Shown: positions 1 through 30,125 of the stretch, piece after piece
How positions within the stretch are numbered: position 1 is the stretch's first letter
Layout of the letters: every line of letters begins with the position of its first letter
From: Amycolatopsis sp. NBC_01488
Lineage (GTDB): Bacteria; Actinomycetota; Actinomycetes; Mycobacteriales; Pseudonocardiaceae
Length of the DNA: 64,000 nt
Assembly (NCBI RefSeq): GCF_036227105.1
Contig: NZ_CP109434.1
Coordinates: forward strand, 129,001 to 193,000
Reading direction: 5' to 3'
The notes under the pieces: generated by a model
Databases searched by the model: none
Told to the model about the DNA's origin: nothing
Seen by the model: the letters and a program-made list of their open reading frames with translations, nothing else
Translations under genes and position numbers: made by a program

Positions 1-1289
1 GCGAGGCGCGCGGCGTTCGGGCCGTAGTAGGCGCCACGCCAGTCCTCGAGGTCCGGGTCGGTGAAGTTGACGTACGACGCGTCCGGCGCGAACTCGCCCG
101 TCTCGGCGTGCAGTGCGTGCAGCCAGTCCAGGTTCGCCCGGACGACGTCCGGCGTGTCCCGCTCGGTCCACGACGTGTCGAGGCTCAGCAGGAACTTCGT
201 GTCCCGGTGCGGGAACGCGGTGTCCGCCACCGGGACCCGGCCGATCGCCCCGCCCCACGCGAACAGCGCGGCCCCGGCGCCGTCGGGGTTGCCGCTGCCG
301 GGCCACTTCTCGACGGCCCGGACGAGCGCCTCCAGCCCGGCGTCCGCCAGCGCGTGCGGCGCGCACCGCGTGCGGACCGCGAACGCGCCGCCTTCGCTGC
401 TGTGGTGCAGGAAGGAGGCCGCGGCCCAGAAATCGCGGTCTTCGATGTCGACGCGGTCGGGAGCGGCGACGGCGAAGGCGGGCGCCAGCAGCTCCCACAG
501 GTCCGACGCCGGGCCGAGGTGGTGGCCCACGACCGAGACGACGCCGTCTTCGCCCGCCGAGCGCGCGACGCCGATCCGTGCGGAGAACTCCTCCGGCGCG
601 GCCAGCATGATCTCCTGCATCGCGGCCAGGACCTCGACCGCGTGCGGCCACGCCCAGAGCACGACGCACGTCGAGCCGGCCGGGGCCGGGCGCGCCTGGA
701 ACGTGAAGCTCGTGTTCACGCCGAAGTTCCCGCCCCCGCCGCCGCGGCAGGCCCAGAACAGGTCCGGATGCTCCGACGCCGACGCGGTGACGACCTCGCC
801 GGAAGCGAGCACGATGTCGGTCGAGACCAGCGCGTCGCACGTGAGGCCGTGCGCGCGAGAGATCGTCGTGACGCCGCCGCCGAGGGTCAGGCCGCCGATG
901 CCGACGGTGTCGGAGTTGCCGAGCGGGAACGTCAGGTCCCACGGCCGCAACCCGGCGTAGAGCGCCTTCATCGGCGTCCCGCCGCCGACGGTGACCCGTC
1001 CGGTGCCGTCCTCGACGCGGATCCCGGACAGCCGCCCGAGGTCGAGCAGCAGGCCGGGGCCCGCCGAGTGGCCCGCGTAGCTGTGCCCGCCGCCGCGGAC
1101 CGCGACGGGCACCGACTCCGCCCGGGCCCATTCGACGGCGCGGGCGACGTCGGCCGCGCTCGTCACGGTCAGCACCGCCGCGGGGCGGGTGGCGGCGAAC
1201 CGCCGGTTCACCGGCGTCACGGCCGCGAAGCCGGAGTCGCCGGGGAACCGCAGTTCGCCCCATCCCCGCAAGGCTTCCCAGGCCGTCAC
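1..1289 (-). CDS. BBE-like FAD-linked oxidoreductase (C-terminus cut by window edge)
   Basis: This gene has no stop inside the window, so its C-terminus lies beyond the left edge. It begins with GTG at 1289, sharing four bases (GTGA) with the stop of the preceding gene. The protein shows the PCMH-type FAD-binding fold: RGGGHS near residues 65-70, whose His69 is the usual 8-alpha flavin attachment site, and later a glycine-rich GIGGLTLGGG stretch. The second covalent anchor of BBE enzymes, a Cys in the G-x-C-x-x-V-G loop, is Ser126 here (GNSDTVG), so single covalent attachment is expected. A BBE-type C-terminal motif (YVNF followed by an Asp-Leu-Glu-Asp-Trp segment) is present just before the edge. 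The family oxidises alcohols, amines or sugars. In this operon it probably acts late on the N-N-containing intermediate. Family call is firm, role inferred. Confidence 0.85.
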   Translation of the reverse strand, partial: MTAWEALRGWGELRFPGDSGFAAVTPVNRRFAATRPAAVLTVTSAADVARAVEWARAESVPVAVRGGGHSYAGHSAGPGLLLDLGRLSGIRVEDGTGRVTVGGGTPMKALYAGLRPWDLTFPLGNSDTVGIGGLTLGGGVTTISRAHGLTCDALVSTDIVLASGEVVTASASEHPDLFWACRGGGGGNFGVNTSFTFQARPAPAGSTCVVLWAWPHAVEVLAAMQEIMLAAPEEFSARIGVARSAGEDGVVSVVGHHLGPASDLWELLAPAFAVAAPDRVDIEDRDFWAAASFLHHSSEGGAFAVRTRCAPHALADAGLEALVRAVEKWPGSGNPDGAGAALFAWGGAIGRVPVADTAFPHRDTKFLLSLDTSWTERDTPDVVRANLDWLHALHAETGEFAPDASYVNFTDPDLEDWRGAYYGPNAARL

Positions 1290-1624
1290 GACGCCACCGC
1301 CACCGGAACTTCTTCGAGGTAGGAGACGCCGGTGGCCGCGTGCTCGCCGTAGCGTTCCCAGACCTCGCGCAGCACCAGGGTGCCGCCGTGCCACTGCGGG
1401 GTGTTGGTGCTGTGCCCGGCGATCACCTCGCCGCTCGCCAGGACCATCGTGTAGGCCAGCCGCAGGACGCCGGCGGCGTCGCAGGTGCCGGTCACCGTGC
1501 CGCGCAGGACGTGGCCGCCTTCGAACTCGGCCCACACCAGGTCGCCCTGCTGGCGGTACTCCGCGTACGTGCCGTCGCCGCCGCCCAGCGCGCGGAACCG
1601 GCGGCCGTCGTAGTGGATGCTCAT
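1286..1624 (-). CDS. Small lipocalin-like protein (family often mislabelled N-acetylglutamate synthase)
   Basis: A 112-residue protein begins with MSIHYDGRRF and is rich in alternating hydrophobic beta-strand patterns, with no signal peptide or membrane helix. It resembles a family of about 110-residue cytosolic proteins that databases often name N-acetylglutamate synthase but which carry no GNAT motif and look like a small beta-barrel. Its start overlaps the ATP-grasp stop by four bases (ATGA) and its stop overlaps the BBE gene start, so it is translationally coupled on both sides. That placement suggests a dedicated function in the pathway, such as binding or isomerising an intermediate, but nothing in the sequence shows a catalytic centre. 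Function unknown. Confidence 0.75.
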   Translation of the reverse strand: MSIHYDGRRFRALGGGDGTYAEYRQQGDLVWAEFEGGHVLRGTVTGTCDAAGVLRLAYTMVLASGEVIAGHSTNTPQWHGGTLVLREVWERYGEHAATGVSYLEEVPVAVAS

Positions 1625-2919: not shown

Positions 2920-4142
2920 CGAAGGTCCTTTCGCAGCAAGGGAACGAGGGTTTGGCCGGCCAGTTCGGCGACGACGGCGTCGGCGGCCAGCGGGGCGGTG
3001 CGGAAGCCGTCGGGGCCGCTGGCCGGGCGGGCCCATGCGGCGAGCCCGACGCGGACGAAGCCGGTGTCGCCGCCCTCGGCGGTGGCGTAGTGGCAGTGCT
3101 TGACCCGCACGACGTCGTAAGCGTCCACATCGGACACGACGCCGGCCGCGAGGACGCGGGCCGCCCAGCCCGCGTCGTCGTCGGGGCCGGAGAGGGTGGT
3201 GACTTCGCGCCGGACGGCGTCGGTGCTGACCTTGAGCAGGGTGCCCGCCACCGAGGGCAGCAGCCAGGCCCGCCCGTCGGCGCCGAGCCCGCCCGCAGTG
3301 GGCGTCGCCGCCCAGGCGTGGGCGAGCGCGGCGGGCGGGCGCAGGTAGACCATGGTCTGCCGGTGCAGCTCGACCCGCTGGTCGAGCAGCGCCCCGGTCC
3401 AGGGCCCGGCGGCGACGAGGACGACGTCGCCGGACTCGGCCGTGCCGTCGGCGAGGTGGACTTTCGCCCGGTCCGCGTCGACGGCGACGGCTTCCCGGCC
3501 GGGCCGCAGCTCGGCGTCCGGGTGGTGCCGCAGCCAGCGCGCGGCGGCGTGCAGCACGCGGTCGGCGAGCAGCGTCCCGGCGTGCGGTTCGAGCACGGCG
3601 CCGCTGCTGCGCGGGAATCCGACGAGGGGGTAGGCGGAGGGGTGCACGATCCGGATGGGCACCCCGGCGGAGCTCGCCGTGGCGACCGCCGCCGGGACGA
3701 GCCCGGGCGGCAGGGCCTGCAGCACCCCGACCCGCCGGTAGAGCCCGGCACCCGGCAGATGGTCGCAGAGCAGCGCGTCCAGCTCACGCCACCGGCGGTG
3801 CAGCTCCGCGGCCCGCCGCGTGGCCGCCCGATCCCCGACGACGAGCGCCCGCAACGCGCGGTGCTGGTCGAAGGAGGTGGCCCCCGGATGCGGCACGGGA
3901 CCGCGTTCGAGGAGGACCACGCGGTGCCCGTCGAGAACGCACCGGATGGCGGTGAGCAGCCCGGAGATCCCCGCGCCGACCACGACGACCCGGAGGCTGT
4001 CGCGACGGGTACCAGTGGTCCGGCCACCACGGGACGCGGCCGGCAGCGTTGCGACCCCGCCGAACTCGGCCGCCACCTCGCTCGGCAGGTCCGCGGCCGC
4101 GCGCGTGACCGTCGCACTTCCCTGCCGGGTGCCGGCGGTCAT
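2916..4142 (-). CDS. FAD-dependent amine oxidase of the DAO/monomeric sarcosine oxidase type
   Basis: A 408-residue flavoenzyme with a Rossmann FAD motif GAGISG at 56-61 and the second dinucleotide-fold signature VLVAAGPWTG at 241-250. HCHYAT (349-354) matches the C-x-Y-T region of monomeric sarcosine and N-methyltryptophan oxidases, where the Cys carries covalent FAD, so Cys350 is a likely flavin attachment site. In the s56-p1 pathway the matching enzyme (Spb39) oxidises the lysine-derived C-N bond of the hydrazine adduct and releases hydrazinoacetic acid; the same role is inferred here. The first 50 residues precede the FAD motif and are an unusual extension. The start is nevertheless supported by the ATGA overlap with the MetRS-like gene. 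Confidence 0.85.
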   Translation of the reverse strand: MTAGTRQGSATVTRAAADLPSEVAAEFGGVATLPAASRGGRTTGTRRDSLRVVVVGAGISGLLTAIRCVLDGHRVVLLERGPVPHPGATSFDQHRALRALVVGDRAATRRAAELHRRWRELDALLCDHLPGAGLYRRVGVLQALPPGLVPAAVATASSAGVPIRIVHPSAYPLVGFPRSSGAVLEPHAGTLLADRVLHAAARWLRHHPDAELRPGREAVAVDADRAKVHLADGTAESGDVVLVAAGPWTGALLDQRVELHRQTMVYLRPPAALAHAWAATPTAGGLGADGRAWLLPSVAGTLLKVSTDAVRREVTTLSGPDDDAGWAARVLAAGVVSDVDAYDVVRVKHCHYATAEGGDTGFVRVGLAAWARPASGPDGFRTAPLAADAVVAELAGQTLVPLLRKDLR

Positions 4143-5677
4143 CTCCCGGCCTCCGCTTCCCGCAGCCGCGGCAGGGCGGCCGGGGTGAACGACTCCGCGT
4201 CCACCCCGGCGTCCGCCACCGGGAGCCGCGATGCCAGATCCACGAGGATCGGCGCCGCGCCGCGCAGGAGGCGGTCGACCTCGAAGCAGAAGTCGCCCGC
4301 GTTCGCACCCGTCACCGTGCGGCCGTCCAAACGCGCCAGCTGCTCCGCGATCGTCTCCGCCGCGCGGTTCAGGCTGAACCCCGCCAGCTCGTACGACTCG
4401 GCGAACCGCGCAGCCATCCGCGAAGCCGCGCGACGCGACCGTGCCGACACCGGCAGCGGGCCGAGCCCGACCCACCGGTTCACCTTGTCCGCCACCCGGT
4501 TCCACGGCTCGACGAGCCGCGACGACGTCACCCGCGCCAGGCCGTCCCGGCTGAAGCTGGTGCGCTGGTGCTCGGGACTGGTCGCGGCCAGGTGGAACCG
4601 GATCAGGTCCCGCGGCACCTCGGCGGCCAGTTCCCGGCTCCACACCACGTGCCCGCGGCTGGTGGAGAACTTCCGGTGGTCCAGCTCGTAGAACTCGTTG
4701 GTGAGGTACCGCGTCGGCAGGTCGTAGCGCCCGTCCAGCGCCAGCAGCATGGCCGGGCCGGCGATCGCGAACGGGTAGATGTTGTCGAACCCGAGGAAGT
4801 ACACGATCTCCGAACCCGCGCCGGCCAGCCACAACGCGTCTTCCGAAGGCACTGGGCCGGAACGCTTCTCCGCGGACAGCGCGGAACAGTGCATGCTCCA
4901 CGCCATCGGCTCGGCGTTCGGGTTGACGCGCTGGCCCGCGACCTCGGGGAAGGGCACCTCGATGCCCCACGAAGTCGGGTACGTCACCGGGAAGTCCGGC
5001 AACGGCCGCGCCAGCATCGAAGCCATCGCCTGCGCCATGTGCGGCCGCATCCCCGCCGCGTGACGCGAGAAGTGCTCCTGGAGCCGCACCCGGTACCGCT
5101 CGACGGGCAGCACGAGCACGTCCGCTTCGCGCAGCACGACCGGGTCCGACGAGTCCAAAGTGGACCGGACGTCCAGCAGGTCCCCGGCGGCGACCAGCTG
5201 CCCGCAGCTCTCGCAGAGCCCCGCGCAGCATTCGGCGAGGCACTCCGGGCAGCTGCCGGCCGCGAACCCGTCCACGAGGAACTGCTCCGAACGCGAGGAG
5301 TACGGGAACTTCATCGTGCGCAGTTCCAGCTTGCCCGCCGAGTACAGCCGGCCGACGAAGTCGACGACCCACTGGGTGAACCGGTCGTCGTCGCCGGTGT
5401 AGCCGTCGACGCCGATGCCCATGGCCTCGAGGCTGGCGGAAATCTGCGCCGCCGAAGTGGCGACCAGCTCCTCCGGGGTGACGCCGCGGCGGTGCGCGGT
5501 CGTCACCACGAACGTCGAGGTGTCCTGGAAACCCGTGCCCAGCAACACTTCCCGGCCCTGGGACCGGGCGTAGCGCGTGTGGACGTCGGCGGCCAGGAAC
5601 GGGCCGGCGATGTGCCCGAGGTGCAGGTCGCCGTTCGCCGTGGGGGCGGGCGAGATGACGACCGTCCGGGCGCTCAT
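4139..5677 (-). CDS. MetRS-like amino-acid-activating half of a hydrazine synthetase
   Basis: This 512-residue class I aminoacyl-tRNA-synthetase homologue keeps the HIGH-type motif HLGH (19-22), a Cys cluster typical of the MetRS knuckle (Cys143, 146, 150/151, 155, 158), GFDNIYPF (296-303) and a KMSKS-like KFSTS (336-340). An all-helical tail follows. It sits directly between an N-monooxygenase plus cupin and an FAD oxidase, which is not where metG lies. In known hydrazine synthetases (for example Spb40) a cupin and a MetRS-like domain are fused: the synthetase domain adenylates an amino acid, which is esterified on the hydroxylamine oxygen of N6-hydroxylysine, and the cupin drives rearrangement to an N-N bond. 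Here the two halves are separate genes overlapping by ATGA. Glycine is the best-known amino-acid partner, but the substrate here is unproven. Confidence 0.86.
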   Translation of the reverse strand: MSARTVVISPAPTANGDLHLGHIAGPFLAADVHTRYARSQGREVLLGTGFQDTSTFVVTTAHRRGVTPEELVATSAAQISASLEAMGIGVDGYTGDDDRFTQWVVDFVGRLYSAGKLELRTMKFPYSSRSEQFLVDGFAAGSCPECLAECCAGLCESCGQLVAAGDLLDVRSTLDSSDPVVLREADVLVLPVERYRVRLQEHFSRHAAGMRPHMAQAMASMLARPLPDFPVTYPTSWGIEVPFPEVAGQRVNPNAEPMAWSMHCSALSAEKRSGPVPSEDALWLAGAGSEIVYFLGFDNIYPFAIAGPAMLLALDGRYDLPTRYLTNEFYELDHRKFSTSRGHVVWSRELAAEVPRDLIRFHLAATSPEHQRTSFSRDGLARVTSSRLVEPWNRVADKVNRWVGLGPLPVSARSRRAASRMAARFAESYELAGFSLNRAAETIAEQLARLDGRTVTGANAGDFCFEVDRLLRGAAPILVDLASRLPVADAGVDAESFTPAALPRLREAEAGR

Positions 5678-6045
5678 GACACGCCTGCTTCGTGGCGGGC
5701 CGTGAACTGGGCGGCCATCTCCGGATCCCACCAGACGCCGTAGTACTCGAAGTCCGCCTCGCCTTCGTTGGTGACGCAGTGCGTCGAGCCCGGCGGCAGC
5801 CGGACGACGTCCCCGGCGGTGAACGGGTGCCGCACGCCGTCGACGACCAGCGTGGCGGCACCGGCCACGGCGATGAAGATCTCGTACTCGTGGTGCGAGT
5901 GCGCGGTGGACGTGGTGCCGGGGCGCAGGATGCACCACGCGCCTTCGAACGGCGCGTTGAGCTCCGGCCAGGGCAGCAGCCGCTGCGAGTCGAGCCCGTA
6001 CGCGCGTTCCAGGTGGTCGCGGTCGAGGCGGCGGATGTCGATCAC
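5674..6045 (-). CDS. Stand-alone cupin half of a hydrazine synthetase
   Basis: A single-domain cupin of 123 residues. Metal ligands are visible as HSHHEYE (about 49-55) in cupin motif 1 and a His in PPGSTH of motif 2. In fused hydrazine synthetases the cupin domain binds metal and converts the O-aminoacyl hydroxylamine ester into the N-N bond. The gene overlaps the N-monooxygenase upstream and the MetRS-like gene downstream by four bases each (ATGA), so all three are expected to be made in step. That stoichiometric coupling fits a two-protein complex replacing the fused enzyme. A generic cupin isomerase or a storage/regulatory role is possible but less likely in this context. Confidence 0.84.
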   Translation of the reverse strand: MIDIRRLDRDHLERAYGLDSQRLLPWPELNAPFEGAWCILRPGTTSTAHSHHEYEIFIAVAGAATLVVDGVRHPFTAGDVVRLPPGSTHCVTNEGEADFEYYGVWWDPEMAAQFTARHEAGVS

Positions 6046-7376
6046 ACCCCCACCCCCACGGACTCGTCGGAGCGGCGAAGGTCCTCATCCGCGCCGCGCC
6101 GTTCGACGATGTCGCCGGCGATCTCGGCCGAGCGCTGGGCCAGCACGCTGATCAGCGAGTCCGAGATGCCGTGCGTCGCCTCGTTGACGCCCTGCAGGTA
6201 CAGCGCGCCGTGGGCGCCGTCGCCGAGGTCGGCCCGGTAGCGCCGGTTGACGGAGACGGCATCCAGGCCGATCGCGTCGGCCAGGCCGCGGACCATCGAA
6301 GGCATCCGCGGGTCGAAGCCGGTGCCGAGGAACACCGCGTCGCAGCGGACCTGCTCGACCGTGTCGTGCTTGAGGTCGCGGACGTCGAGCACGATCTCCT
6401 CGCCGCCGCCGGGCAGCGCCTCCGTCCGGGAGCCGACGACGTCGGCGGAGCCGCGGATGGTCGAGACGGGCTGGCCGAGCATCTTCTGCTTGTAGAGCAT
6501 CGTGTAGAGCTCTTCGAGGAAGGGCGCGGCGAGGCCGCCGTAGTTGGTCAGGTGCATCTCTTCCAGCACCTTCGCCCGCGCCTCTTCGGACATCGTGAAG
6601 AATTCGTCCACGAAGGACGGGAAGAACAGCTCGTTGACGAACTTGCTGGTCTGGTAGTCCTTGAGGGCGATCGAGCGCAGCAGCAGCGTCGGGGACGAGC
6701 CCGGCGCCTCCTGGTGCAGGGCCATGAACATCTCGGCCGCGCTCTGCGCGCCGCCGACGACGACCGGCCGCAGCGGCTTGCCCGGACGGGCCAGTCCGGT
6801 GGTCTCGGCGATGCGGGTGCTGAACTCGGTGCTGTGCACGACCCGCTCGGCCGGCAGCCCGCGGAAGACCTCCGGCACGTGGGCGTCGCGGCCGCCGCCG
6901 ATGACCAGGTCGCGGCAGAGGATCGTGTCGCCGTCGGACAGCGGGACGGTGAAGCCGAGCACCCGGCCCGACTCCGCGTGGATCGGCAGGACCCGCTCGG
7001 CGCGGGCGTTGTAGCGGACCTTCACCTGCTCCAGCGAGTCGGCCACCCACTGCAGATAGGCCGAGATCTGCCAGCGGAACGGGTTGAACGTGCCGAGGTT
7101 GACGAACTCGTCGAGCTCGCCGCGCTCGTGCATGAAGTTGAGGAAGGAGAAGCGGCTGCGCGGGTTGCGCAGGGTCACCAGGTCCTTCACGTAGGACACC
7201 TGGCTGCGCGCCCACGGCAACATCAGGTTGCGCTGCCACTTCACGTCTTCGTACTGCTCGAGGATCAGCGCGCCGCGGGCCACGCCGGACCGGCCGCACT
7301 CCTCGAGGGCGACGGCCAGCGCGAGGTTCGCCGGGCCGGCCCCGATCATCAGGACATCCACTTCGTGGACGGTCAT
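6042..7376 (-). CDS. L-lysine (or ornithine) N-monooxygenase, SidA/PvdA/IucD family
   Basis: A 444-residue flavin- and NADPH-dependent N-hydroxylase. GAGPAN at 12-17 binds FAD, GGAQSA at 208-213 binds NADPH, and the C-terminal half holds the LGTGF and NEATHGISDSL signatures typical of lysine/ornithine N-hydroxylases. The product would be N6-hydroxylysine (or N5-hydroxyornithine), the hydroxylamine partner for N-N bond formation. No siderophore synthetase lies nearby, and the next two genes are cupin and MetRS-like, so a hydrazine pathway is favoured over siderophore assembly. ATG at 7376 follows a 59-nt gap after the binding-protein gene that contains a strong hairpin. Confidence 0.9.
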   Translation of the reverse strand: MTVHEVDVLMIGAGPANLALAVALEECGRSGVARGALILEQYEDVKWQRNLMLPWARSQVSYVKDLVTLRNPRSRFSFLNFMHERGELDEFVNLGTFNPFRWQISAYLQWVADSLEQVKVRYNARAERVLPIHAESGRVLGFTVPLSDGDTILCRDLVIGGGRDAHVPEVFRGLPAERVVHSTEFSTRIAETTGLARPGKPLRPVVVGGAQSAAEMFMALHQEAPGSSPTLLLRSIALKDYQTSKFVNELFFPSFVDEFFTMSEEARAKVLEEMHLTNYGGLAAPFLEELYTMLYKQKMLGQPVSTIRGSADVVGSRTEALPGGGEEIVLDVRDLKHDTVEQVRCDAVFLGTGFDPRMPSMVRGLADAIGLDAVSVNRRYRADLGDGAHGALYLQGVNEATHGISDSLISVLAQRSAEIAGDIVERRGADEDLRRSDESVGVGV

Positions 7377-9132: not shown

Positions 9133-10308
9133 TCAGCGCCGGCTGGAGGTGATGCCGAGGGCCAGCGGGAACGCGGGGCGGCCACCGAGCAGGTGGGCGC
9201 CGGCGGTCTGCAGGATCCGGTCCTGTGCCACGATGTGCTGGCACATCGTGGTGGTGTCGCGCAGCCAGCGGTCCAGCGGCGACGGCCGGTAGATCGCGGT
9301 GGTCTGCACCAGGTCGTAGAGACGGGTGACGATCGACCGGGCGGTGCGGAACGCGTGCCGCCGCGAGAGCGGGAGCGCGGCCCGCTCGCGCGGGGTCAGG
9401 TCGTCGAGGGTGCCGCCCGCGGACAGGACTTCGTGCTGGCGCCGCAACGCGCCGTAGACGCCCTCGCGGGTGGCGGCGAAGTCGCCTTCGCAGTCGGCGA
9501 TCGTGGTCTGCGTGCGGTAGTCGTCCTCGCGGCCGGCGGAGACGGCGGCGTCCGTGGCGTGGTCCAGCGCGGCACGGGCGACGCCGAGCGCGACGCCCGG
9601 CATGTTCCGCATGTGCACCTCGGGCTGGGCCAGCGGGCCCGTGCCGCCGCGGACGTCCGCGAAGACGAGGGTGTGCTCGGCCGGCACGAACACGTCGGTG
9701 ATCGTGTAGTCGCAGCTGCCGCTGCCCGCCAGGCCGGTGGTGTGCCAGGTGTCGAGCACCTCGACGTCGGCCTTCGGCACCATGAGCAGGATCGAGTCGT
9801 GCTCGGGCTCACCGTCGCGGTACAGGAACGCTCCGGAGACGACCCAGTCGGCGTGCGTGACACCGCTGCCGAACTGCCAGCGGCCGGTCAAGCGGTAGCC
9901 GCCGGAGACGATTTCCGCGCGGCCGTTGGGGAAGAGCAGCCCCGCGGTCGCCGTGTCCAGGCTGGGGAACATCTCTTCGGCGACGGCGTGGTCCAGGAAC
10001 GAGGCGTAGAGCCCGGTGTCCGACCCGATCATCGCGCACCACCCGGCCCCGGCGTCGCCGTAGGACAGGGCCTCGATCACCTCGGTCTGCTCGATCGAGG
10101 TCAGCTCGGGACCGCCGTGAGCGCGGGAGAACCCCATCCGGAAGACGCCGGTGCCGCGCAGGAGGTCCACGACGTCCGCGGGCAGCCGCCGGGCCCGCTC
10201 GATCTCTTCGGCGCGGTCCCGCAACACCGGGGCAAGGGCCAGCGCCCGGGCGAGGATCTCCGCGGCGGTCTCGGGCGGCCGGACGGACAGCGGCTCGACT
10301 ACGGTCAT
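9133..10308 (-). CDS. Acyl-CoA-dehydrogenase-like flavoenzyme (group D monooxygenase/oxidase fold)
   Basis: A 391-residue protein of the acyl-CoA dehydrogenase superfamily with N-terminal helical, middle beta and C-terminal helical domains; RMGFSRAHGGPE (N-terminal) and LTGRWQFGSGVTHADWVV (middle domain) are characteristic. Proteins of this group in secondary metabolism include flavin-dependent N-hydroxylases, sulfur monooxygenases and dehydrogenases acting on tethered substrates. In an N-N pathway it could oxidise a hydrazine to a hydrazone, azo or diazo group; that is inference. ATG at 10308 is preferred over the adjacent GTG at 10311 because GGAAG lies 7 nt upstream. It is the first gene of the operon. 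Confidence 0.82.
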   Translation of the reverse strand: MTVVEPLSVRPPETAAEILARALALAPVLRDRAEEIERARRLPADVVDLLRGTGVFRMGFSRAHGGPELTSIEQTEVIEALSYGDAGAGWCAMIGSDTGLYASFLDHAVAEEMFPSLDTATAGLLFPNGRAEIVSGGYRLTGRWQFGSGVTHADWVVSGAFLYRDGEPEHDSILLMVPKADVEVLDTWHTTGLAGSGSCDYTITDVFVPAEHTLVFADVRGGTGPLAQPEVHMRNMPGVALGVARAALDHATDAAVSAGREDDYRTQTTIADCEGDFAATREGVYGALRRQHEVLSAGGTLDDLTPRERAALPLSRRHAFRTARSIVTRLYDLVQTTAIYRPSPLDRWLRDTTTMCQHIVAQDRILQTAGAHLLGGRPAFPLALGITSSRR

Positions 10309-10364
10309 CACATCACTTCCTTCGAGGTCTTCTTCTCGGTCGTGGAAGTGATTGAAGCCAGCGG

Positions 10365-11315: not shown

Positions 11316-12701
11316 TCAGGCGGCCGGCGTCGGTACGCCGGCGGCGATCAGGTGGGTGGCGGCGAAGGCGCGCCACGGGTGCCAGGCGGCGGCCAGCCGG
11401 CCGGCGTTGGCGGAGACGTCGTGCTCGAGCAGCATCGTCTCGAGCGTGCGCTCGGTGGCCGGGAAGGCGTCGGCGTGCCCCAGCCGCAGCGCGATCTCCT
11501 GGGCGGTGCTCTGCTCGATGCCGGGCAACGCCGTCAGCGCGGCGGTGCAGTCGGCCAGGCTCGCCCCGGGGTCGAGCAGGGTTTCGTCCGCGGCCACGGC
11601 GGCGGCGAACGTGCGCAGCGTCCGCGCGGTCGTGGCGGGCAGCCGGGCTCCCGCCAGGTCCGCTTGGGCCAGGGTCTCGGCCGAGGGGAAGAGGTGGGTC
11701 AAGCCGTGTTCGAGGCCCGGCACGCGCTGGCCCGCCGCTTCGACCAGCGCGGCCAGCTGCCGCCGCACCCGCGCGCGGACGCTGTACTGGCTCAGCACGG
11801 CTTCCACCGCGACCTCGAAGAAGCCCCAGGCGCCCGGCACCCGCAGGCCGGGCCGCTCGCGCAGCAGCGGACCCAGGACCGGGTCGTCGGCCAGCGCCGC
11901 CTCGGCGGGCGCGGTGTCGGCGTCGACCCCGACCATCCGCCCGACGCGGTCGACGACGTGGATCAGCCCCTCCCAGAACGGCATGTGCGCGGTCAGCAGC
12001 AGGTGGTCGTCGCCGCCGCGGCCGACCTCGATGACGCCCGCTTCGCCGTCGAGGCTGATCGTGCGCCGGTAGACGCCGTCGCGCACCGACTCGACGCCCG
12101 GGACCGCGCGCTCGGCGAGGAAGGCGCTGAGCGCCTCCCAGTGCAGTGGCGGGGCGAACGGCAGCCGCATCGTCAGGCCGCCGTCCGCGGCGATCCGGTC
12201 GGCCTTGCGGCGCCGGTTGCGCAGCTCGACCGGGGACGCGCGGAAGACCAGCTTCATGTCCCGGTTGAACTGGCGCAGGCTGCCGAACCCGGCGGCGAAC
12301 GCCACGTCCGCGACGGTCAGGTCGGAGTCGTCGAGCAGGCGGCGCGCGAAGTGGGCGCGCCGCGACCGGGCGAGCTGGTCCGGCGTCACGCCGAGGTGGT
12401 CGTGGAAGAGCCGGCGCAGGTGCCGCGGCGACACCGCCAGCCGCTGGCCGAGCGCCGCTTCGGTGCCGGTGTCCAGCGCCCCGGCGATGATGAGCTGCAC
12501 CGCGCGGCAGACGAGCTCCGGCGCGTCGGCGGCGACCGGGCCGGCGACGCGGTAGGGGCGGCAGCGCAGGCACGCCCGGAACCCCGCGGCCTCGGCCTCG
12601 GCGGCCAGCTCGAACGTCTTCACGTTCTCCGCGAGCGGCTTCGCCCCGCATCCGGGACGACAGTAGATGCCGGTCGTGACCACGGCCGAAAAAGTCGTCA
12701 T
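11316..12701 (-). CDS. Ada/AlkA-type regulator-DNA glycosylase with altered active site
   Basis: The 461-residue protein joins an Ada zinc domain (Cys14, Cys18, Cys44, Cys47; TTGIYCRPGC), an AraC-type helix-turn-helix (VADVAFAAGFGSLRQFNRD) and an AlkA-like domain with the helix-hairpin-helix segment LTALPGIEQSTAQEIALR. AlkA glycosylases carry a catalytic Asp after the hairpin (FPATD-like). Here the aligned residue is Glu417 (FPATERTL), and the usual Trp in GIGPWTA is Ser. Base-excision activity may be lost or changed, while zinc and DNA-binding parts look intact. It starts at ATG 12701 and is divergent from the ABM gene, with an inverted-repeat motif between them. Confidence 0.85.
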   Translation of the reverse strand: MTTFSAVVTTGIYCRPGCGAKPLAENVKTFELAAEAEAAGFRACLRCRPYRVAGPVAADAPELVCRAVQLIIAGALDTGTEAALGQRLAVSPRHLRRLFHDHLGVTPDQLARSRRAHFARRLLDDSDLTVADVAFAAGFGSLRQFNRDMKLVFRASPVELRNRRRKADRIAADGGLTMRLPFAPPLHWEALSAFLAERAVPGVESVRDGVYRRTISLDGEAGVIEVGRGGDDHLLLTAHMPFWEGLIHVVDRVGRMVGVDADTAPAEAALADDPVLGPLLRERPGLRVPGAWGFFEVAVEAVLSQYSVRARVRRQLAALVEAAGQRVPGLEHGLTHLFPSAETLAQADLAGARLPATTARTLRTFAAAVAADETLLDPGASLADCTAALTALPGIEQSTAQEIALRLGHADAFPATERTLETMLLEHDVSANAGRLAAAWHPWRAFAATHLIAAGVPTPAA

Positions 12702-12736
12702 GTCCCAGGTGTAGGCGATCCGGCGGGGCCGCGCTA

Positions 12737-12798
12737 GCCAGATCCGGACATGACCGCCGCAGCTGCGCACCCCGCGAGAAGACGTGTCCGGATCTGGC
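12737..12798. promoter_or_regulatory. 14-bp inverted repeat between ada-like and ABM genes
   Basis: GCCAGATCCGGACA (12737-12750) and its exact reverse complement TGTCCGGATCTGGC (12785-12798) face each other in the divergent promoter region. The rightward copy lies 81 nt before the ABM start. A third identical copy at 16927-16940 also lies 81 nt before a start codon. A binding site for the adjacent AraC/Ada-type protein is a natural inference. Confidence 0.6.
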
Positions 12799-13215: not shown

Positions 13216-13397
13216 CAAGGCGAATTCCGCGACAACGGCGTCACGCTCCGATTACCGGAGTAGTCCACGTCACGCAGGAATTGATTTTCCGGTAAAACCA
13301 ACTCTGCCGGTCAACCGGCCAGGCCGCTGCAATGAGGAAGCCGGCACCACGGATCGCGGTGCGGTACCCCCTTCGCAAGCCACCTGGAGGCTCGGCC

Positions 13398-14609
13398 GTG
13401 ACCACCACCGAAGAACCCACCGGCGTACTGGCCGTCCTGCGCCGGACGCCAACGCCGGTCCGCTCCCTGCTCGCCGGCGTGCTCGTCAACCAGCTCGGCG
13501 CGTTCGTCCAGACGTTCATGGTGCTGTACCTGGTCTTCCGCGGGTTCTCCGTGGGACAGGCGGGCATCGCGATCGCCGCGTACAGCGTCGGCTCGGTCCT
13601 CGGCGGGCTGGTCGGCGGCGAGCTGGTCCACCGGATCGGCCCGCGGGCCACGATCACCGCCGCGATGTCCGGTTCGGCCGTGATCCTCGCCCTCGTCCCG
13701 TTCTTCGGCCGTCCCGGGCTCTTCGCCGCGCTGATGGCCGCCTTGCTGCTCGCCGGGCTCGCGACCCAGAGCTACCGGCCCGCGGCCGCCGTTCTGCTCA
13801 GCGAGCTGATGCCCGACGCCGACCGCGTCATGGGCTTCTCGATGATGCGGATCGCCCTCAACCTCGGCGCGGCGCTCAGCCCGCTGATCGCGGCCGGCCT
13901 GATCCTGCTCGACTGGAACCTCCTGCTGTGGTTCGACGCGGCGACCGCGCTGCTCTACGCCGTGCTGGCGGTCCGGCTGCTGCCCGACCTCCGGGTCGGG
14001 CGCGAGACGCCGGCCGAGCGTGGAACCCGGGCCGCGTACGGGATCCTGCTGCGCGACGGCCGGTTCTGGTTCTTCCTGGCCTCGGTGCTCATCGGCTCGG
14101 TCATCTACGTCCAGTACACGGTTTCGCTGCCGCTGAAGATCACCGCCGAAGGGCACTCCGCCGGGCTCTACAGCGTCGTGCTCGTGACCGCGTCGGCCGT
14201 GCTGATCCTGTGCGAGCTGAAGATCACCTCGTACGTCACGCGCTGGCCGGGCCACGTCGCCGCGACGGCCGGGACCGTGCTGATGGGCCTGGGCGTCGCC
14301 GGTTTCGGGATCAGCGGCGGGTCCGCGGTCGCGCTCGTCGCGTGCACGGTGGTGTTCGTCTTCGGGATCATGATCAACGGGCCGACGATGTTCGCCTACC
14401 CCTCGACGTTCCCGGCCGCCGTCAAGGCGCGCTACATCAGCGCCCACCAGGCGACTTTCGGCCTCGGCATGGCGCTCGGGCCGCTGTTCGGCGTCGCCGC
14501 GTGGGTCGCGCTCGGCAACGGCGTCTGGTGGCTGTGCGGCGCGCTCGGCCTGGTGGCCGCGCTGTGCGCCCTGCTCGGCATGACGGCGGGCCGCCCCGCC
14601 ACCCCCTGA
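13398..14609 (+). CDS. MFS exporter
   Basis: A 403-residue major facilitator protein with about 12 membrane helices and the cytoplasmic-loop motif GGELVHRIGPRATI between helices 2 and 3, as in drug:proton antiporters. The GTG at 13398 is chosen because GGAGG lies 7 nt upstream; the longer reading from 13332 has no ribosome site and adds a non-conserved basic tail. It is a reasonable candidate for export of the product or self-resistance. Its upstream region shares the 10-mer TTGATTTTCC (13281-13290) with the operon promoter region. Confidence 0.88.
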   Translation: MTTTEEPTGVLAVLRRTPTPVRSLLAGVLVNQLGAFVQTFMVLYLVFRGFSVGQAGIAIAAYSVGSVLGGLVGGELVHRIGPRATITAAMSGSAVILALVPFFGRPGLFAALMAALLLAGLATQSYRPAAAVLLSELMPDADRVMGFSMMRIALNLGAALSPLIAAGLILLDWNLLLWFDAATALLYAVLAVRLLPDLRVGRETPAERGTRAAYGILLRDGRFWFFLASVLIGSVIYVQYTVSLPLKITAEGHSAGLYSVVLVTASAVLILCELKITSYVTRWPGHVAATAGTVLMGLGVAGFGISGGSAVALVACTVVFVFGIMINGPTMFAYPSTFPAAVKARYISAHQATFGLGMALGPLFGVAAWVALGNGVWWLCGALGLVAALCALLGMTAGRPATP

Positions 14610-14746: not shown

Positions 14747-14812
14747 CCAGACAGCGGAAGAGACACCGGCCGCGAAGAGCGACGCTGAGTGAGTGAGGGG
14801 AAGGGGATTCAC

Positions 14813-16138
14813 ATGGGCCGACCAGAAAAACCCGTCAACACGTCCGGTGGCATCGCCACCCAGTTCGCTCGGGAATTGCGCGAACTGCGCGCACGAGCCG
14901 GAAATCCGACTTATCGGGAAATGGCCCGGTCGGCGATGTTCTCGTCGTCGGTGCTCTCCAGCGCGGCGAGCGGCAACCGGATGCCGTCGCTGCAGGTGAC
15001 GCTCGCGTTCGTGGCCGCGTGCGGCGGCGACGACGAGGCGTGGCGCCGCCACTGGCACGCCGCGACGAGCGGCTATACGCAGCCTCCGTTCGGGGCGCGC
15101 AAGAGAAGACCCACCCTGTTCCACCGGCGCGGCACGCCGCCGCGCCCAGCGCAGCTGCCGCAGCGACCCCGGCGCTTCACCGGCCGGACGGCCGAGCTGG
15201 ACCGGCTGCGGTCCCCGCGCGACACGCCCGTGGTGATCAGCGGACCGGCCGGCGTCGGCAAGACCGATCTGGCTTTGCACTACGCGCATTCGATCGCGGC
15301 GGAACAGGCCGACGGGCAGCTGTACGCGGACCTCGGCGGCCTGCGCCACGGCGGCGGCGCTCCACCGGCACCGGCGACGGCCGACGTCCTCGACGGCTTC
15401 CTGCGCGCGCTCGGCGTCGAGGACGACCAGCTGTCGGGCACCTTCGACCACCGGGCCGGGCTGTACCGCACGCTGCTCGCCGAACGCCGGCTCGTGGTCG
15501 TGCTGGACAACGTCCAGGACGAGCAGCAGGTGCGCCCGCTGCTGGCCGAAACGACCACCAGCACGACGGTGCTGGTCAGCCGCAAGCGGTTGCTGGGCCT
15601 GCGCGACGTGCACCGGCTGCAGCTGGCGCCGTTGCCGCGCGGCGACTCGATCGCGCTGATCACCGCGGCGCTCCCGCACGTCGCCGGCTCGGCCGGTCCC
15701 GACTGCGACCGCCTCGCCGAGCTGTGCGGCGACCTGCCGCTCGCGCTCGACCTGGCCCTGCGCAAGATCGCGTCGCGGCCGCGGCTGACGCTGCGGCGGG
15801 TCGTCGAGGAATGGCGCCTCAACGGCACGTCCGTGGACTGGCTGAGCGTCGGGGACCTGTCCCTGCGCGACTCCCTGGAGTCCGCCTACCGCACGCTGAG
15901 CCCGCCCGCGCGGGAGCTGCTGGCCCGGCTGGCGCGGACGCCCTCCGGCGGGTTCGACGCGGCTTCCGCGACGCTGGACGAGCTCGTCGAGGAGATCGCG
16001 GACGCCGGCCTGCTCGCCCACGCCGACCCGTACTTGGACGGCCACGGCGTGCCGCCGCCCGTGCGCGATTTCGTGCTCAGCACCGTCGAGCCCACCGGTG
16101 ACGACGTTTCCGTCCTCGCGGGGCCCGTGTCCGCGTAG
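14813..16138 (+). CDS. XRE-type HTH plus NB-ARC ATPase regulator
   Basis: The 441-residue protein begins with an XRE-like helix-turn-helix (residues about 14-75; the text around YREMARSAMFSSSVLSSA is typical of actinobacterial regulators) and continues into an NTPase domain with P-loop GPAGVGKTD at 144-152, a hydrophobic Walker B (VVVLDN) and a PLALDLAL sensor region. It lacks the long TPR or SARP modules of larger AfsR-type proteins. ATG at 14813 is preferred over an upstream GTG at 14789 because a GGGGAAGGGG ribosome site precedes it. As the only apparent pathway-type regulator between exporter and membrane gene it is the best candidate for control of the operon. Confidence 0.84.
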   Translation: MGRPEKPVNTSGGIATQFARELRELRARAGNPTYREMARSAMFSSSVLSSAASGNRMPSLQVTLAFVAACGGDDEAWRRHWHAATSGYTQPPFGARKRRPTLFHRRGTPPRPAQLPQRPRRFTGRTAELDRLRSPRDTPVVISGPAGVGKTDLALHYAHSIAAEQADGQLYADLGGLRHGGGAPPAPATADVLDGFLRALGVEDDQLSGTFDHRAGLYRTLLAERRLVVVLDNVQDEQQVRPLLAETTTSTTVLVSRKRLLGLRDVHRLQLAPLPRGDSIALITAALPHVAGSAGPDCDRLAELCGDLPLALDLALRKIASRPRLTLRRVVEEWRLNGTSVDWLSVGDLSLRDSLESAYRTLSPPARELLARLARTPSGGFDAASATLDELVEEIADAGLLAHADPYLDGHGVPPPVRDFVLSTVEPTGDDVSVLAGPVSA

Positions 16139-17212: not shown

Positions 17213-17241
17213 GAACCGCCCGCCCGACGAATCGAGTGATC

Positions 17242-18039
17242 ATGACCCACCAACGGCTCCTGATGTGTTCCGCGCGCTATTTCCGCATCGACTACGAAAT
17301 CAACCCGTACATGCACGTCGGCGTCCAGCCCGACCTCGAAGCCGCCATCACCGAACACGAGAACATCGTGGAGGCGCACCTGGCGGCCGGCCGCAAGATC
17401 GAGTTCGTCGACGCGGACCCGTCCTGCCCCGACATGACGTACACGGCCAACGCGGCAGTGGTCCAGGGAAACCGCGCGGTACTGGCGACGCTCCCCCCGG
17501 AGCGCGCGGCGGAGACCCCGCACCACCGGGCGTGGCTGGAGTCCCACGGGTTCGAGGTGACTTCGACGCGCTACGCGTTCAGCGGCCAGGGTGACGCGCT
17601 GGCGTGCGGCCCCCTGCTGCTGGCGGCGCACGGCCAGCGCACGGACGCCCGGGCGTTCCGGACGCTGGCGCGTCACCTGGACTACGAGATCGTCCCCCTC
17701 CGCACGACGAGTTCCCAGTGGTACGACCTGGACCTGGCGGTGGCGGTGATCGCCCCGGCCGTCCTGGCGTACAACCCGGCGGCGCTGGACGCACCGAGCC
17801 TGCGCACGCTACGCGGACTGGGCGTCGAGCTGATCGAGGTGGCTCCGGCGGAGGCGGCGGCGTTCGCGCTGAACCTGATCAGCGACGGCCGCACGGTGAC
17901 GATGACCGCGGGAGCCCCGCGACTGGCGGCGGACCTGAGATCGCTGGGCCTGACGGTGACCGAGCTGGACACCACGGAACTCCGCAAGGGCGGCGGCGGA
18001 ATCCGCTGCACGGCGTTGACCCTGGACAACCCCGCCTGA
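17242..18039 (+). CDS. Amidinotransferase/dimethylargininase-superfamily protein, catalytic His missing
   Basis: This 265-residue protein has the beta/alpha-propeller pattern of dimethylarginine dimethylaminohydrolase and arginine deiminase relatives: CPDMTYTAN (substrate loop), GQGDALACG (the FEGxGD-type element) and a C-terminal GGGGIRCTAL with the nucleophilic Cys. Family members normally have a catalytic His in a YHLDT-type motif; here it reads WYDLDLAV, so the His is replaced by Asp. Either chemistry differs (another guanidino or N-N substrate) or hydrolase activity is lost. ATG 17242 is used; an in-frame GTG lies at 17236. Upstream and downstream hairpins make it monocistronic. Confidence 0.83.
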   Translation: MTHQRLLMCSARYFRIDYEINPYMHVGVQPDLEAAITEHENIVEAHLAAGRKIEFVDADPSCPDMTYTANAAVVQGNRAVLATLPPERAAETPHHRAWLESHGFEVTSTRYAFSGQGDALACGPLLLAAHGQRTDARAFRTLARHLDYEIVPLRTTSSQWYDLDLAVAVIAPAVLAYNPAALDAPSLRTLRGLGVELIEVAPAEAAAFALNLISDGRTVTMTAGAPRLAADLRSLGLTVTELDTTELRKGGGGIRCTALTLDNPA

Positions 18040-18855: not shown

Positions 18856-19422
18856 TCAGGACCTCTCCGTAAACCGGCCGAAGAGTCCCCGTCGTCGCCT
18901 GGGCAGTAGGTCCATATCTTCCGGCGGGAGACGGACCAGGACAGCGGCGAGCTCGTTCTCGCTACCTGCGCCCAGCCAGAATCCGCCGGAACTGAAGGTC
19001 CACCGCTCCACGTCCTCTGGCTCAGCCTGTCCCGCATAGAAGCCGTCTTCGAGCTCATAGCGATACGTGAACTTGTCCGAGTATTCATAGGCGTGTCCCG
19101 GTTCGGGCTGAAAGTCGACCGCCAGCCGAGTACTGTGCGGCTCTGTTGGAACCGTCAGAGCCGCGGAGCGGCTGAGATAGCGCCGAAGCGATAGCTTCGC
19201 GGCGAATGCGAAGATCTTCAGCGAATCGACGGCCACCTCGAATTCCATCTCGTCGACCATGATCGTGGCTGTGGCGATGCCGTCGACCACAGCTTCGGAA
19301 CCGGCGGTGAAGAGCTCGACCCAATCCCGCTGACCTGGCAGCAGATCCGCGCGAATCGAGGCGTGCGCGGGCTGCGGGCTGCCCACGACGACCAGCGGGA
19401 GGGGCGAGTAGTGTGTTTCCAT
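18856..19422 (-). CDS. Candidate immunity protein for the RHS toxin
   Basis: A 188-residue soluble, acidic protein without signal peptide or known motif. Its ATG overlaps the stop of the RHS gene (TAATG), the arrangement expected for a toxin-immunity pair. Central residues are strand-rich and the C-terminus is basic (RRRRG). I recognise no immunity family such as SUKH or SMI1. Assignment rests on position and coupling. Downstream, about 165 nt to the rlmN-like remnant hold no gene. Confidence 0.6.
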   Translation of the reverse strand: METHYSPLPLVVVGSPQPAHASIRADLLPGQRDWVELFTAGSEAVVDGIATATIMVDEMEFEVAVDSLKIFAFAAKLSLRRYLSRSAALTVPTEPHSTRLAVDFQPEPGHAYEYSDKFTYRYELEDGFYAGQAEPEDVERWTFSSGGFWLGAGSENELAAVLVRLPPEDMDLLPRRRRGLFGRFTERS

Positions 19423-22400
19423 TATTTCCGGCTCGAGTAGTGGAAGTGGTAGATAGTCCGGCTACGGGGATGGATCACGAGGTGATAGTAGCCGCTGCTC
19501 TTGTTCCAGGAGCCCTTCACACGCCAGGCGACTGCACCTCGCGCGCCTTGCGGATCCCGTATTGGCTTGTTCTTCATGATTTCACGCATGAGGAGCCGGC
19601 TGCTCTGGTATCCACGCACGGTTCCCTTGAATGCCGTCCGACTGTACTTGAGGCTGCTCAGCGCTCTGCGGGCTTGGCTTGCACGCCGGGCCAGGACGAC
19701 CGAGTGAGCGACAGCGGTCACCTTGCGCGCGGCTTTCACGATCATCCCGCCTACGCCGCCGGTGATCGCCCCGAACGCGTACTGGGCCGCGGCGACCCAG
19801 TTGCCCTGGATGGCGTTGCCCACCGCGGCGACACCGCTGGCAACGGCGCCGATCGGGCCCGGGATCCATGACGCGACTTCAGCCACCTTGGTGACGACAT
19901 TGACAGCGGCGCTGAACCAGCCCCACATGGATCCGTCGAGATCCTTGGCGTTGATCGGGTCTCCGACGACATAGTCGTAGTCGTTGGCCGAACCGCCTTC
20001 GACCGGGTCGACCGACAGGAACCGGCCGAGCAGCGGGCTGTACGGCCGGGCACCCATCTGCACCAGGGAGAGCCCACCGGTGTGTTCATAGGCCCTCTGG
20101 TACTGACCGAGCCAGCCGTAGTCCATCGAACCGGGCAGGTTGTCCGGGACGTTCTGACTGTCGACCGCGCCGCCGGTGGTGAGCGGCTGCCCGTAGGGGT
20201 CGAACGTACGCAATTCACCGGCTTGGTGGCCGGCGGCGTCGGTGGACAGGACGAGGTCGCCCCGAACCGACGGGTGGTCGTAGGCCGGAGTGAACGCTCC
20301 GTCGGAACCGACCTTGGTCGTGTAGAGAACGCCGCCGGGCAGCGTCAAGGTCAACGACGTGAGCCGTCCATCAGTGTTCAGTGTGAGGTCAGCCGAGTCA
20401 CCGTCGCCGGTGAAGCCGTAGCGGACGACAGCGTTGTTGTCGCAATCTCGCGGGTCGCGGCGCACGATGCGGTTGGCCGCGTCGCGGGTATATGCGATGT
20501 CGGCGTTCAGCGCCGGAGTGGGCCCGACGGTCCGGGCGCCGATGTTGCGGTCGGAGCCATCCCAGGTCAGGGTCGTGGTGGTGCCATCCGCCGCGGTCCA
20601 TCCAGTCGTGTTGCCGTCCGTGTCATAGCCGACGGCGGTGAGGGCGGTGGCGCCTTGGGTCGACAGGAGCCGGTCGGCGGCGTCGTAGCAGTAGCGAGTT
20701 TCCGCCGTGCCGGATGCCGTCTGGTCGACCAGGCGCATCCGGTTGGTGTTCACCCCTGCGTTGGCCTGGGTACCGGCGGGGCAGGTGGCTGACGCGGCCG
20801 AGGTGTAGTCGTACGTGTAGTGGTGCCCGGCGACATAGGCCTCGGTCAACCGCCCGATGCTGTCGTACAGGTAGTTGGGTGCGTTCGGGCGGGCGTCGAT
20901 CCCTCCCAGAGATTCGTCGACGATCGTGCCGGCTGATGTGCGACCGACCTGCGAGACGATGTCCTTGCCGTCGCTGGTCTTCCAGCCGAGACCCAGGAGT
21001 CGTGCGCCGTTGTCCTTCGTCACCGATGCCAGCGACGCACCGTTGCCGTACGTTGCCGTTGCGAGCTCGCCGGCGCCGTCGTAGGTGACCGACGCCAGGA
21101 CCTGGTCGTCCAGCTTTTCGGCCTGCACCCGCCCGGCGTCGTCATAGGTGTACGACACGACGCGCGGCGCGTCGGCTGGGTCGGGTGGGGTGACCGTCGA
21201 GGTGGCGACGCGGCCCACCTGGTCGTATGTCGTGCTGGTGCGGACGCCGTTCACGTCGGTGTAGGAGACGACACGGCCGAGCAGATCGCTCACCGTGGTG
21301 ATGGTGCCCTTGTCGTCGCTGATCGATGCCGTAAGGGGATCGCCGCCGACCGCGTAGTCGTGGGTGACCGTCCGAGCCGGAGCGTCCTTGCTGGCCGGCA
21401 CCTTCTCCTGGACCGGCCGGTCCCGGGCATCGTAGGTGGTGCAGGTCCATTCACCGCCGGTCGACTCCGCGACGGTCCGGCCGGACGCGTCGTACACCTG
21501 CTCGTCGACCCTCGCCGGTCCGGACGCCGGAGTGGCGCCGGTCGTCAGCTTGGCCATGCCCGCTTGGTTGATCGCAGATGTCCCCGGAGCGCAGGGATTG
21601 ACGCGGGTTTCGGTGTCGCCGTAATAGGAGTAGGTCGTCTTCGCGCCGCTGGGCATGGTCTTGGCGGTCTTGCGCAGATACCCGGTTCCGGGTGCCTCGT
21701 AGGACACGCTTCCGGTGACGGTGAGCCCATTCGGGTTGGCCTGGCCGGATGTCGCCAGGCCGTATGCCGGGTCAATCCCGTCGTCCCCGAACTTCGTCGT
21801 CCCGACCTTGTCCGCGACACCGTCGGATTCTGCGGCGGTGGTCGAGGTCTTGAGTCCGTAGTGCGGACGCAACTGGGCGCCCGGGACGGGCTGCTGGGTT
21901 CCGGACGGTGTGGTCCAGTGCAGTTCCAGCTGAGCGGTCTGGTCGAATTCGTAGTAGTCGATGCGGATCCGCTTCGCTTGCCCGGCCGCATCGGAGTGCA
22001 CCACACCCTGGCGCCAGGCCGGCGTGGTGTTGCGCCAGTCGTCGATGACCAGCTGGTCGTCGATCCATACCCGCACACCGTCGTCGGCGAGCAGCCGCAG
22101 CGTGTAGTCGCCGGCCGACGGGAAGACGATGTCTCCCCCAGCCCGTAAGGAGAAATGGTCCGCCGGGATGCCGGCCGTCGGCGCGTCGGTATTCCAGTTC
22201 TTCACCAACGAGCCGTCGGCGGTGCCCAATCCCGTCGTGTAGGCCTTCGGGGCACCAGCGAGCTGGTCGTTGTCGTACCAGGCGACAGCGAGGCCATTGA
22301 TGCCTTCGTCGTAACCGTTGTGCGCGTGAGCCATGCCACCGGCGCAAGTACCGCTGGGCTGCTGACCGCTGAAGCAGGACGTGGGTGCCGGTCCGTAGGT

Positions 22401-30023: not shown

Positions 30024-30125
30024 GTTTCCGCCGGCTTTTCCGCCGGTTCCTCCTGGAGTCCCGATGTGGTGATCCCTAGTGTTTCCCGCGTCACCGACCC
30101 GCATCCGTGCCTTCCGAGGAGACCC

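Follow-up and report, generated by a model that had tools for sequence, protein, structure and literature searches.

A probable hydrazine synthetase module with separate cupin and MetRS-like genes in Amycolatopsis sp. NBC_01488

Known cupin/MetRS-like systems

Paralogues of methionyl-tRNA synthetase (MetRS) that are fused to a cupin, or stand beside a separate cupin gene, were described in 2010, always in company with an N-monooxygenase; several of these operons also hold ATP-grasp enzymes, peptide-binding proteins and dimethylargininase, as well as flavin monooxygenases (PMC2922099). In 2021 a standalone cupin and its MetRS paralogue were proven active, forming first an ester and then a nitrogen-nitrogen (N-N) bond (PMC8664883). 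The same work established that the ester is unstable; that an amide arises as a shunt product without an active cupin; that a cupin glutamate is essential; and that the separated domains of PyrN, and likewise the cupin RHS1 with a foreign MetRS-like domain, function in trans. PMC11705231 tabulates several pairs, describes the oxidases Spb39, Tri27 and Apy10, and reports that Apy11 uses diaminobutyrate and that Por9 works with N5-hydroxyornithine. The subject here is a gene cluster of Amycolatopsis sp. NBC_01488, whose genome is a single contig of 9.5 Mb. The stretch analysed (the window; 64,000 nucleotides, positions 129,001 to 193,000 of NZ_CP109434.1) contains adjoining genes for a flavin-dependent N-monooxygenase (NMO), a cupin and a MetRS-like ligase.

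Two kinds of characterised system resemble this locus. In Rhodococcus jostii RHA1, RHS1 and its standalone MetRS-like partner are likewise separate proteins, with an N-hydroxylase and a D/H-x-H-x3-E ... H cupin site. That system joins N6-hydroxylysine and glutamate, and its cluster was chosen for a saccharopine-dehydrogenase-like gene (PMC8664883); the window has instead an oxidase of the DAO type and an ATP-grasp ligase, and the two cupins share about 38% identity across 79 residues. PyrN (pyrazomycin), Spb40 (s56-p1) and Tri28 (triacsin) contain the same two domains in the same order as the window, but in one chain, and the s56-p1 and triacsin clusters have an NMO and a DAO-type oxidase alongside, as the window does (PMC11705231). 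The neighbourhoods of 2010 share with the window the cupin, NMO, ATP-grasp enzyme, periplasmic peptide-binding proteins, dimethylargininase and flavin monooxygenases; a 112-residue avidin-like protein encoded in the window goes without mention in the excerpted account of them (PMC2922099). Since these three papers precede it, the locus is a new example of an enzyme, and of a two-gene form, already known. No paper on this cluster was found among the matches listed in a search of titles and abstract openings in the open-licence literature.

A split N-N bond-forming module

The three genes very probably constitute a module for N-N bond formation, a naturally split representative of the cupin/MetRS-like hydrazine synthetase family. 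Direct observations carry this assignment: gene anatomy, family membership, conserved active sites, a conserved cluster, and selection.

Membership of the family, as the initial annotation had claimed, is supported by both halves. The best Protein Data Bank (PDB) sequence match of the MetRS-like protein is 9l8v (158.2 bits, E 2.6e-45), whose title gives the C-terminal domain of PyrN with glutamyl-sulfamoyl-adenosine, a glutamyl-adenylate analogue; the true MetRS 1rqg reaches 133.7 bits. Fold comparison of the model, which has a predicted local distance difference test (pLDDT) score of 95.5, also places 9l8v first. The class I adenylation motifs are intact: HLGH at residues 19-22 (HIGH-like) and KFSTS at 336-340 (KMSKS-like). 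H19, G21, H22, K336 and S338, together with four cysteines, are kept in all 94 aligned MetRS-like rows, with an L, V or I at position 20 in 93 of them. NCBIfam cut-offs for an ordinary MetRS are not reached (best 213.8 bits against 553; metG, 170.9 against 336.35), and an ordinary metG is present separately elsewhere in the genome.

The cupin, rather than falling into an unrelated family, matches RHS1 (5uqp, E 7e-10). Its nearest solved relatives are 4rd7 (152 bits) and plu4264 (4mv2 and 4q29; 121 bits), for which the listing names no function. Its predicted metal-site residues (H49, H51, E55 and H89) follow the pattern H/D-x-H-x3-E ... H with an invariant glutamate: H51, E55 and H89 occur in 91 of 91 complete aligned cupins, and H49 in 87. 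Matched by motif, these residues correspond to H50, H52, E56 and H90 of PyrN and to D63, H65, E69 and H103 of RHS1 (PMC8664883 numbering); the printed alignment with RHS1 is off by one residue at the metal site. In two relatives (L122 and L128), both halves align in order inside one fused open reading frame. The linked N-hydroxylase of the Lys/Orn family that is expected of hydrazine synthetase loci is also present, as the adjoining NMO (PF13434), whose predicted role is side-chain N-hydroxylation of ornithine, lysine or a related compound.

Some observations weigh against the assignment. In the fold comparison the margin of PyrN over the true MetRS 1rqg is small (template-modelling scores, by query, of 0.87 and 0.83); the 9vq4 group, whose sole name is methionine-tRNA ligase, ties with PyrN on sequence (158.1 bits); and Pfam assigns the protein to tRNA-synt_1g, above the family cut-off. 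The MetRS-like half shares only 32% identity with the compared part of PyrN and comes 79th of 94 when ordered by similarity to PyrN, so that PyrN specificity is not transferable. Finally, the substrates, downstream steps and product of the pathway are predictions, the downstream steps resting on family names.

The gene order given in the initial annotation is correct: NMO, cupin and MetRS-like open reading frames all lie within 4139..7376, on the minus strand (Table 1). Its ATGA overlap at each junction holds in part. Both junctions do overlap by four bases, but only cupin/MetRS-like reads ATGA; the cupin starts with GTG, and NMO/cupin reads GTGA. Because their open reading frames are in different frames, the cupin and MetRS-like proteins are separate polypeptides. 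Four-base ATGA overlaps follow at the next three junctions (MetRS-like protein to FAD (flavin adenine dinucleotide) oxidase, FAD oxidase to ATP-grasp ligase, and ATP-grasp ligase to 112-residue protein), and a four-base GTGA overlap joins the last of these to the next oxidase. In the nearest split clade (the near clade, 18 loci: L033-L039, L053-L060, L063, L072 and L115), 13 of the 18 junctions between NMO and cupin show the four-base overlap again, as do 15 of the 17 scorable ones between cupin and MetRS-like gene, with start codons picked by our own rule. This recurrence puts the overlap pattern beyond chance.

Selection was gauged by the Nei-Gojobori ratio of nonsynonymous to synonymous substitution rates (dN/dS) in nine genes, each set against at most seven close relatives. 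All 60 pairwise comparisons fall below 1, with 0.17-0.25 for the MetRS-like gene (6 pairs) and 0.18-0.47 for the cupin (7 pairs); high guanine-cytosine content may compress dS. The cluster thus appears to be under maintenance.

Proposed chemistry and first substrate

The chemistry of the module can be carried over, by analogy, from characterised relatives. The NMO would add a hydroxyl group to the side-chain amine of a diamino acid, either ornithine or lysine. Using ATP, the MetRS-like protein would adenylate a second amino acid and transfer it to the hydroxyl, forming an unstable O-aminoacyl hydroxylamine ester, and the separate zinc cupin would take this ester to a rearranged, N-N-linked product with no net redox change. 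The FAD oxidase would then probably cleave that product to a hydrazino acid, the ATP-grasp ligase would couple the hydrazino acid to another amino acid, and flavin enzymes would oxidise it further.

The initial annotation suggested N6-hydroxylysine for an assay of the pair; that this is the substrate is doubtful. The nearest solved relative of the NMO is the L-ornithine 5-monooxygenase 3s5w (253 bits); other ornithine enzymes score about 196 and KtzI 185, and the lysine enzymes MbtG and 5cqf score 181 and 152. This pattern, with the arginine-dihydrolase-like gene nearby, makes the first substrate lean to ornithine, although similarity does not fix specificity. On the PyrN side of the tree, the NMO of L124 (a single case) has as best matches 6xbb, the lysine enzyme 5o8p and the putrescine enzyme 7us3.

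Split and fused relatives

Gene layout was compared in 98 related loci: 78 named loci kept from at least 408 confirmed relatives, and 20 stretches from genomes of the same genus or family (four loci are duplicated: L093/L035, L096/L049, L068/L046 and L071/L048). The cupin and MetRS-like genes are separate and adjacent in 66; 22 have the cupin within the cluster but on the opposite strand; two are fused; L116 and L117 have the cupin about 5.5 kb downstream; and six have no cupin in the fetched stretch. Two of these six, from Kitasatospora, have it 0.8-1.2 kb past the edge, apparently on the same contig, and the others (L061, L062, L070 and L126) lie on short contigs or at a contig end. In the opposite-strand loci inspected, the NMO gene sits between the other two. 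Absence of the cupin where the MetRS-like gene directly follows the NMO was considered and rejected; larger stretches show it on the opposite strand. Among 80 genomes of the same genus, all taken to belong to the genus set compared, a cupin lies at most 2.8 kb from each of the 42 MetRS-like genes.

A tree of the MetRS-like proteins gives a similar account (quick method, midpoint root; 91 distinct rows, one an ordinary MetRS; five loci have no complete MetRS-like open reading frame). Of the 75 rows in the half to which the window belongs, 53 (its own included) are split, 17 are opposite-strand and five are without a cupin in the stretch; none is fused. PyrN is most similar to rows in the other half, and the branch of the window (40 rows, itself counted) is well separated from PyrN. 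The table of clades spans 87 of the 98 loci (outside it stand L052, L061, L062, L070, L082, L088, L092, L093, L094, L106 and L126); the other close groups comprise 24 loci (the opposite-clade group) and 19 loci.

The initial annotation presented the locus as a fused enzyme that had been divided. Such a departure from the norm is not borne out: only two of the 98 loci, in a sample biased toward the window's own branch, are fused, and standalone cupins were noted in 2010 (PMC2922099) and found active in 2021 (PMC8664883). Because the sample leans to that branch, split is the rule within it only. The split as a novelty was rejected as well, the two-gene form being already in the literature.

Three sets of relatives deserve mention in their own right. 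Streptomyces scabiei 87.22 (L059) carries a counterpart of the cluster that shares its core genes and whose MetRS-like protein is 64% identical. In the distinct split cupin/MetRS-like locus of Streptomyces griseofuscus DSM 40191 (L104), the NMO gene is downstream; a link with pyridazomycin is worth a look, since PMC7347517 assigns that compound to Streptomyces violaceoniger sp. griseofuscus and gives its N-hydroxylase as unknown. Other same-genus cupins, 37-44% identical to that of the window, lie inside open frames of about 700-1160 codons and are possible fusions to other domains (G002:C82:49980, G015:C1:1087078, G022:C1:4156348, G070:C1:6548917, G068:C75:140739, G021:C158:67103 and G032:C24:478224).

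Alternative readings

Must the cupin and MetRS-like protein bind stably as two subunits, so that the ester is channelled between them? The conserved overlap between their genes, at 15 of 17 scored near-clade junctions, suggests matched synthesis, and the instability of the ester (PMC8664883) would make proximity of the two enzymes helpful. That a complex is strictly required is doubtful nonetheless, given the 22 of 98 loci with opposite-strand cupins (the NMO gene intervening where inspected) and the published activity in trans both of the PyrN domains apart and of RHS1 with a foreign MetRS-like domain (PMC8664883). The two-subunit complex predicted in the initial annotation is therefore not supported.

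The proposal of 2010 had the MetRS-like protein make an amide or dipeptide, which the cupin would oxidise or otherwise alter; a peptide of the Met-Lys type was predicted for this gene set (PMC2922099), and an ATP-grasp peptide ligase is indeed encoded in the operon. This route is very improbable in view of the characterised members of both halves, which give the ester and the N-N bond with the amide as a shunt (PMC8664883), and of E55, the match of the essential glutamate, which is present in 91 of 91 cupins.

There is equally little to recommend a hydroxamate or N-hydroxylated siderophore with the cupin/MetRS pair as a side branch: the NMO is of the siderophore family and the operon encodes an extracellular solute-binding protein, but the latter belongs to the oligopeptide class, the operon genes searched include no acyltransferase, and in the three closest groups, whose loci had been selected by the MetRS-like gene, the NMO is accompanied by that gene in 61 of 61 and by the cupin in 59 (the other two cupins are just outside the stretch).

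A negamycin-like product was set aside, the hydrazine of negamycin being reportedly formed by a heme enzyme, as a title among the references of PMC13274452 has it. PMC12154649 points the same way on the negamycin hydrazine.

Neighbouring genes

The split hydrazine synthetase module is embedded in a larger cluster (Table 1). By analogy with Spb39, Tri27 and Apy10 (PMC11705231), the DAO-type oxidase is predicted to cleave the hydrazine intermediate oxidatively. With oxidase starts as called, the distance between the MetRS-like and oxidase genes in 17 scored near-clade loci varies from an overlap to a gap of 497 bases, and the oxidase may carry extra N-terminal sequence of differing length there. 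The ATP-grasp ligase also matches LAL_C2 (E 1.3e-06), just under its cut-off. The berberine-bridge-type oxidase gene leaves the window, its remainder lying in L003, down to 16944; the flavin reductase after it is likely the partner of the HsaA/Rv3094c-like monooxygenase, which matches Rv3094c (E 2.4e-50) and HSA hydroxylase 2rfq (E 5.6e-33). The HTH/ATPase regulator is probably linked to the cluster, and the dimethylargininase-like protein might supply citrulline or ornithine.

The alkylation-repair fusion beside the cluster was considered as a self-resistance gene and rejected: copies 87-92% identical occur in same-genus genomes without a MetRS-like hit (G023, G057 and G059) or at a distance from one (G036 and G065). 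Two further proteins farther along, a very long one with RHS repeats and a lectin-domain protein, are listed last in Table 1.

Table 1. Coordinates of the genes discussed (window positions unless noted), with the number of the 18 near-clade loci that have a counterpart
Feature	Position	Strand	Evidence	Near-clade loci
Flavin-dependent N-monooxygenase, 444 aa	6042..7376	-	PF13434 E 5.5e-78	
Standalone zinc-type cupin, 123 aa	5674..6045	-	PF07883 E 7.7e-16; RHS1 match; metal-site residues	
Standalone MetRS-like ligase, 512 aa	4139..5677	-	PF09334 E 7.7e-59; HLGH, KFSTS, CPEC/CESC	
DAO-family FAD-dependent oxidase, 408 aa	2916..4142	-	PF01266 E 9.1e-21; weak NikD/sarcosine oxidase matches	18
ATP-grasp ligase, L-amino-acid-ligase type, 432 aa	1621..2919	-	PF13535 E 2.4e-18; nearest solved BL00235, BacD	
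112-aa protein, predicted avidin-like beta barrel	1286..1624	-	without family match	
FAD-linked (berberine-bridge type) oxidase	1..1289 (GTG start at 1289; exceeds window)	-	PF01565 E 9.2e-30, PF08031 E 1e-16	
Flavin reductase	L003 16417-16944 (just outside window)		PF01613 E 7.1e-32	
Oligopeptide-type extracellular solute-binding lipoprotein, 555 aa	7436..9103	-	PF00496 E 1.5e-66	10
Acyl-CoA-dehydrogenase-fold flavin monooxygenase, HsaA/Rv3094c-like	9133..10311	-	PF08028 E 5.5e-14	
PEP-mutase/isocitrate-lyase family protein, 274 aa	10470..11294	-	PF13714 E 1.4e-80	12
Ada-AraC-AlkA alkylation-repair fusion, beside cluster	11316-12770	-		6 (including Saccharothrix carnea L055)
Major facilitator family exporter, divergent from operon	13332..14609	+	PF07690 E 3.4e-35	7 (and 22 of 24 opposite-clade loci)
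HTH/ATPase regulator	14789..16138	+	HTH_31 E 3e-07, AAA_16 E 3.5e-07	11
Dimethylargininase/arginine-dihydrolase-like protein	17236..18039	+	NF045659 211 bits, under cut-off 300	3 (and 16 of 24 and 10 of 19 in the other two closest groups)
2098-aa protein	19422-25718	-	PA14, GLEYA, RHS-repeat domains	
Ricin-B-type lectin domain protein	30066-30695	+		

An avidin-like companion

The 112-residue protein is predicted, with high confidence in the model, to fold as an avidin-like barrel; the families listed for 32 of its members include no Pfam avidin match at E values of 0.1 or below. All 39 full-length copies found in the 80 same-genus genomes lie within 8.5 kb of the MetRS-like gene, a count that assumes that all 80 were included in the genus set compared and that draws on related, not independent, genomes, which makes a Fisher test on these data no more than indicative. 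Companionship is not strict: the MetRS-like gene occurs without the 112-residue protein in three genomes of the genus (G021, G033 and G077), and in a class-wide draw this protein is near in only five of 14 MetRS-like-matching genomes, most of the other nine carrying distant MetRS-like types. Tentatively, and with the odds against it, the protein might serve one large branch of hydrazine pathways as a dedicated, previously undescribed partner that binds, protects or cyclises a reactive hydrazino or N-N peptide intermediate from the ATP-grasp ligase; the product of the cluster would then be a hydrazino-dipeptide not yet isolated.

Significance

The split itself adds little, because the two-gene form had been proven active before. 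Enzymes that form N-N bonds are scarce and useful, and this cluster adds a well-conserved split member to them. Its avidin-like companion is a concrete starting point, simple to test, for learning how such pathways deal with reactive hydrazines. Moreover, the branch to which the window belongs, far from PyrN, is open to mining and may include members with other amino-acid preferences.

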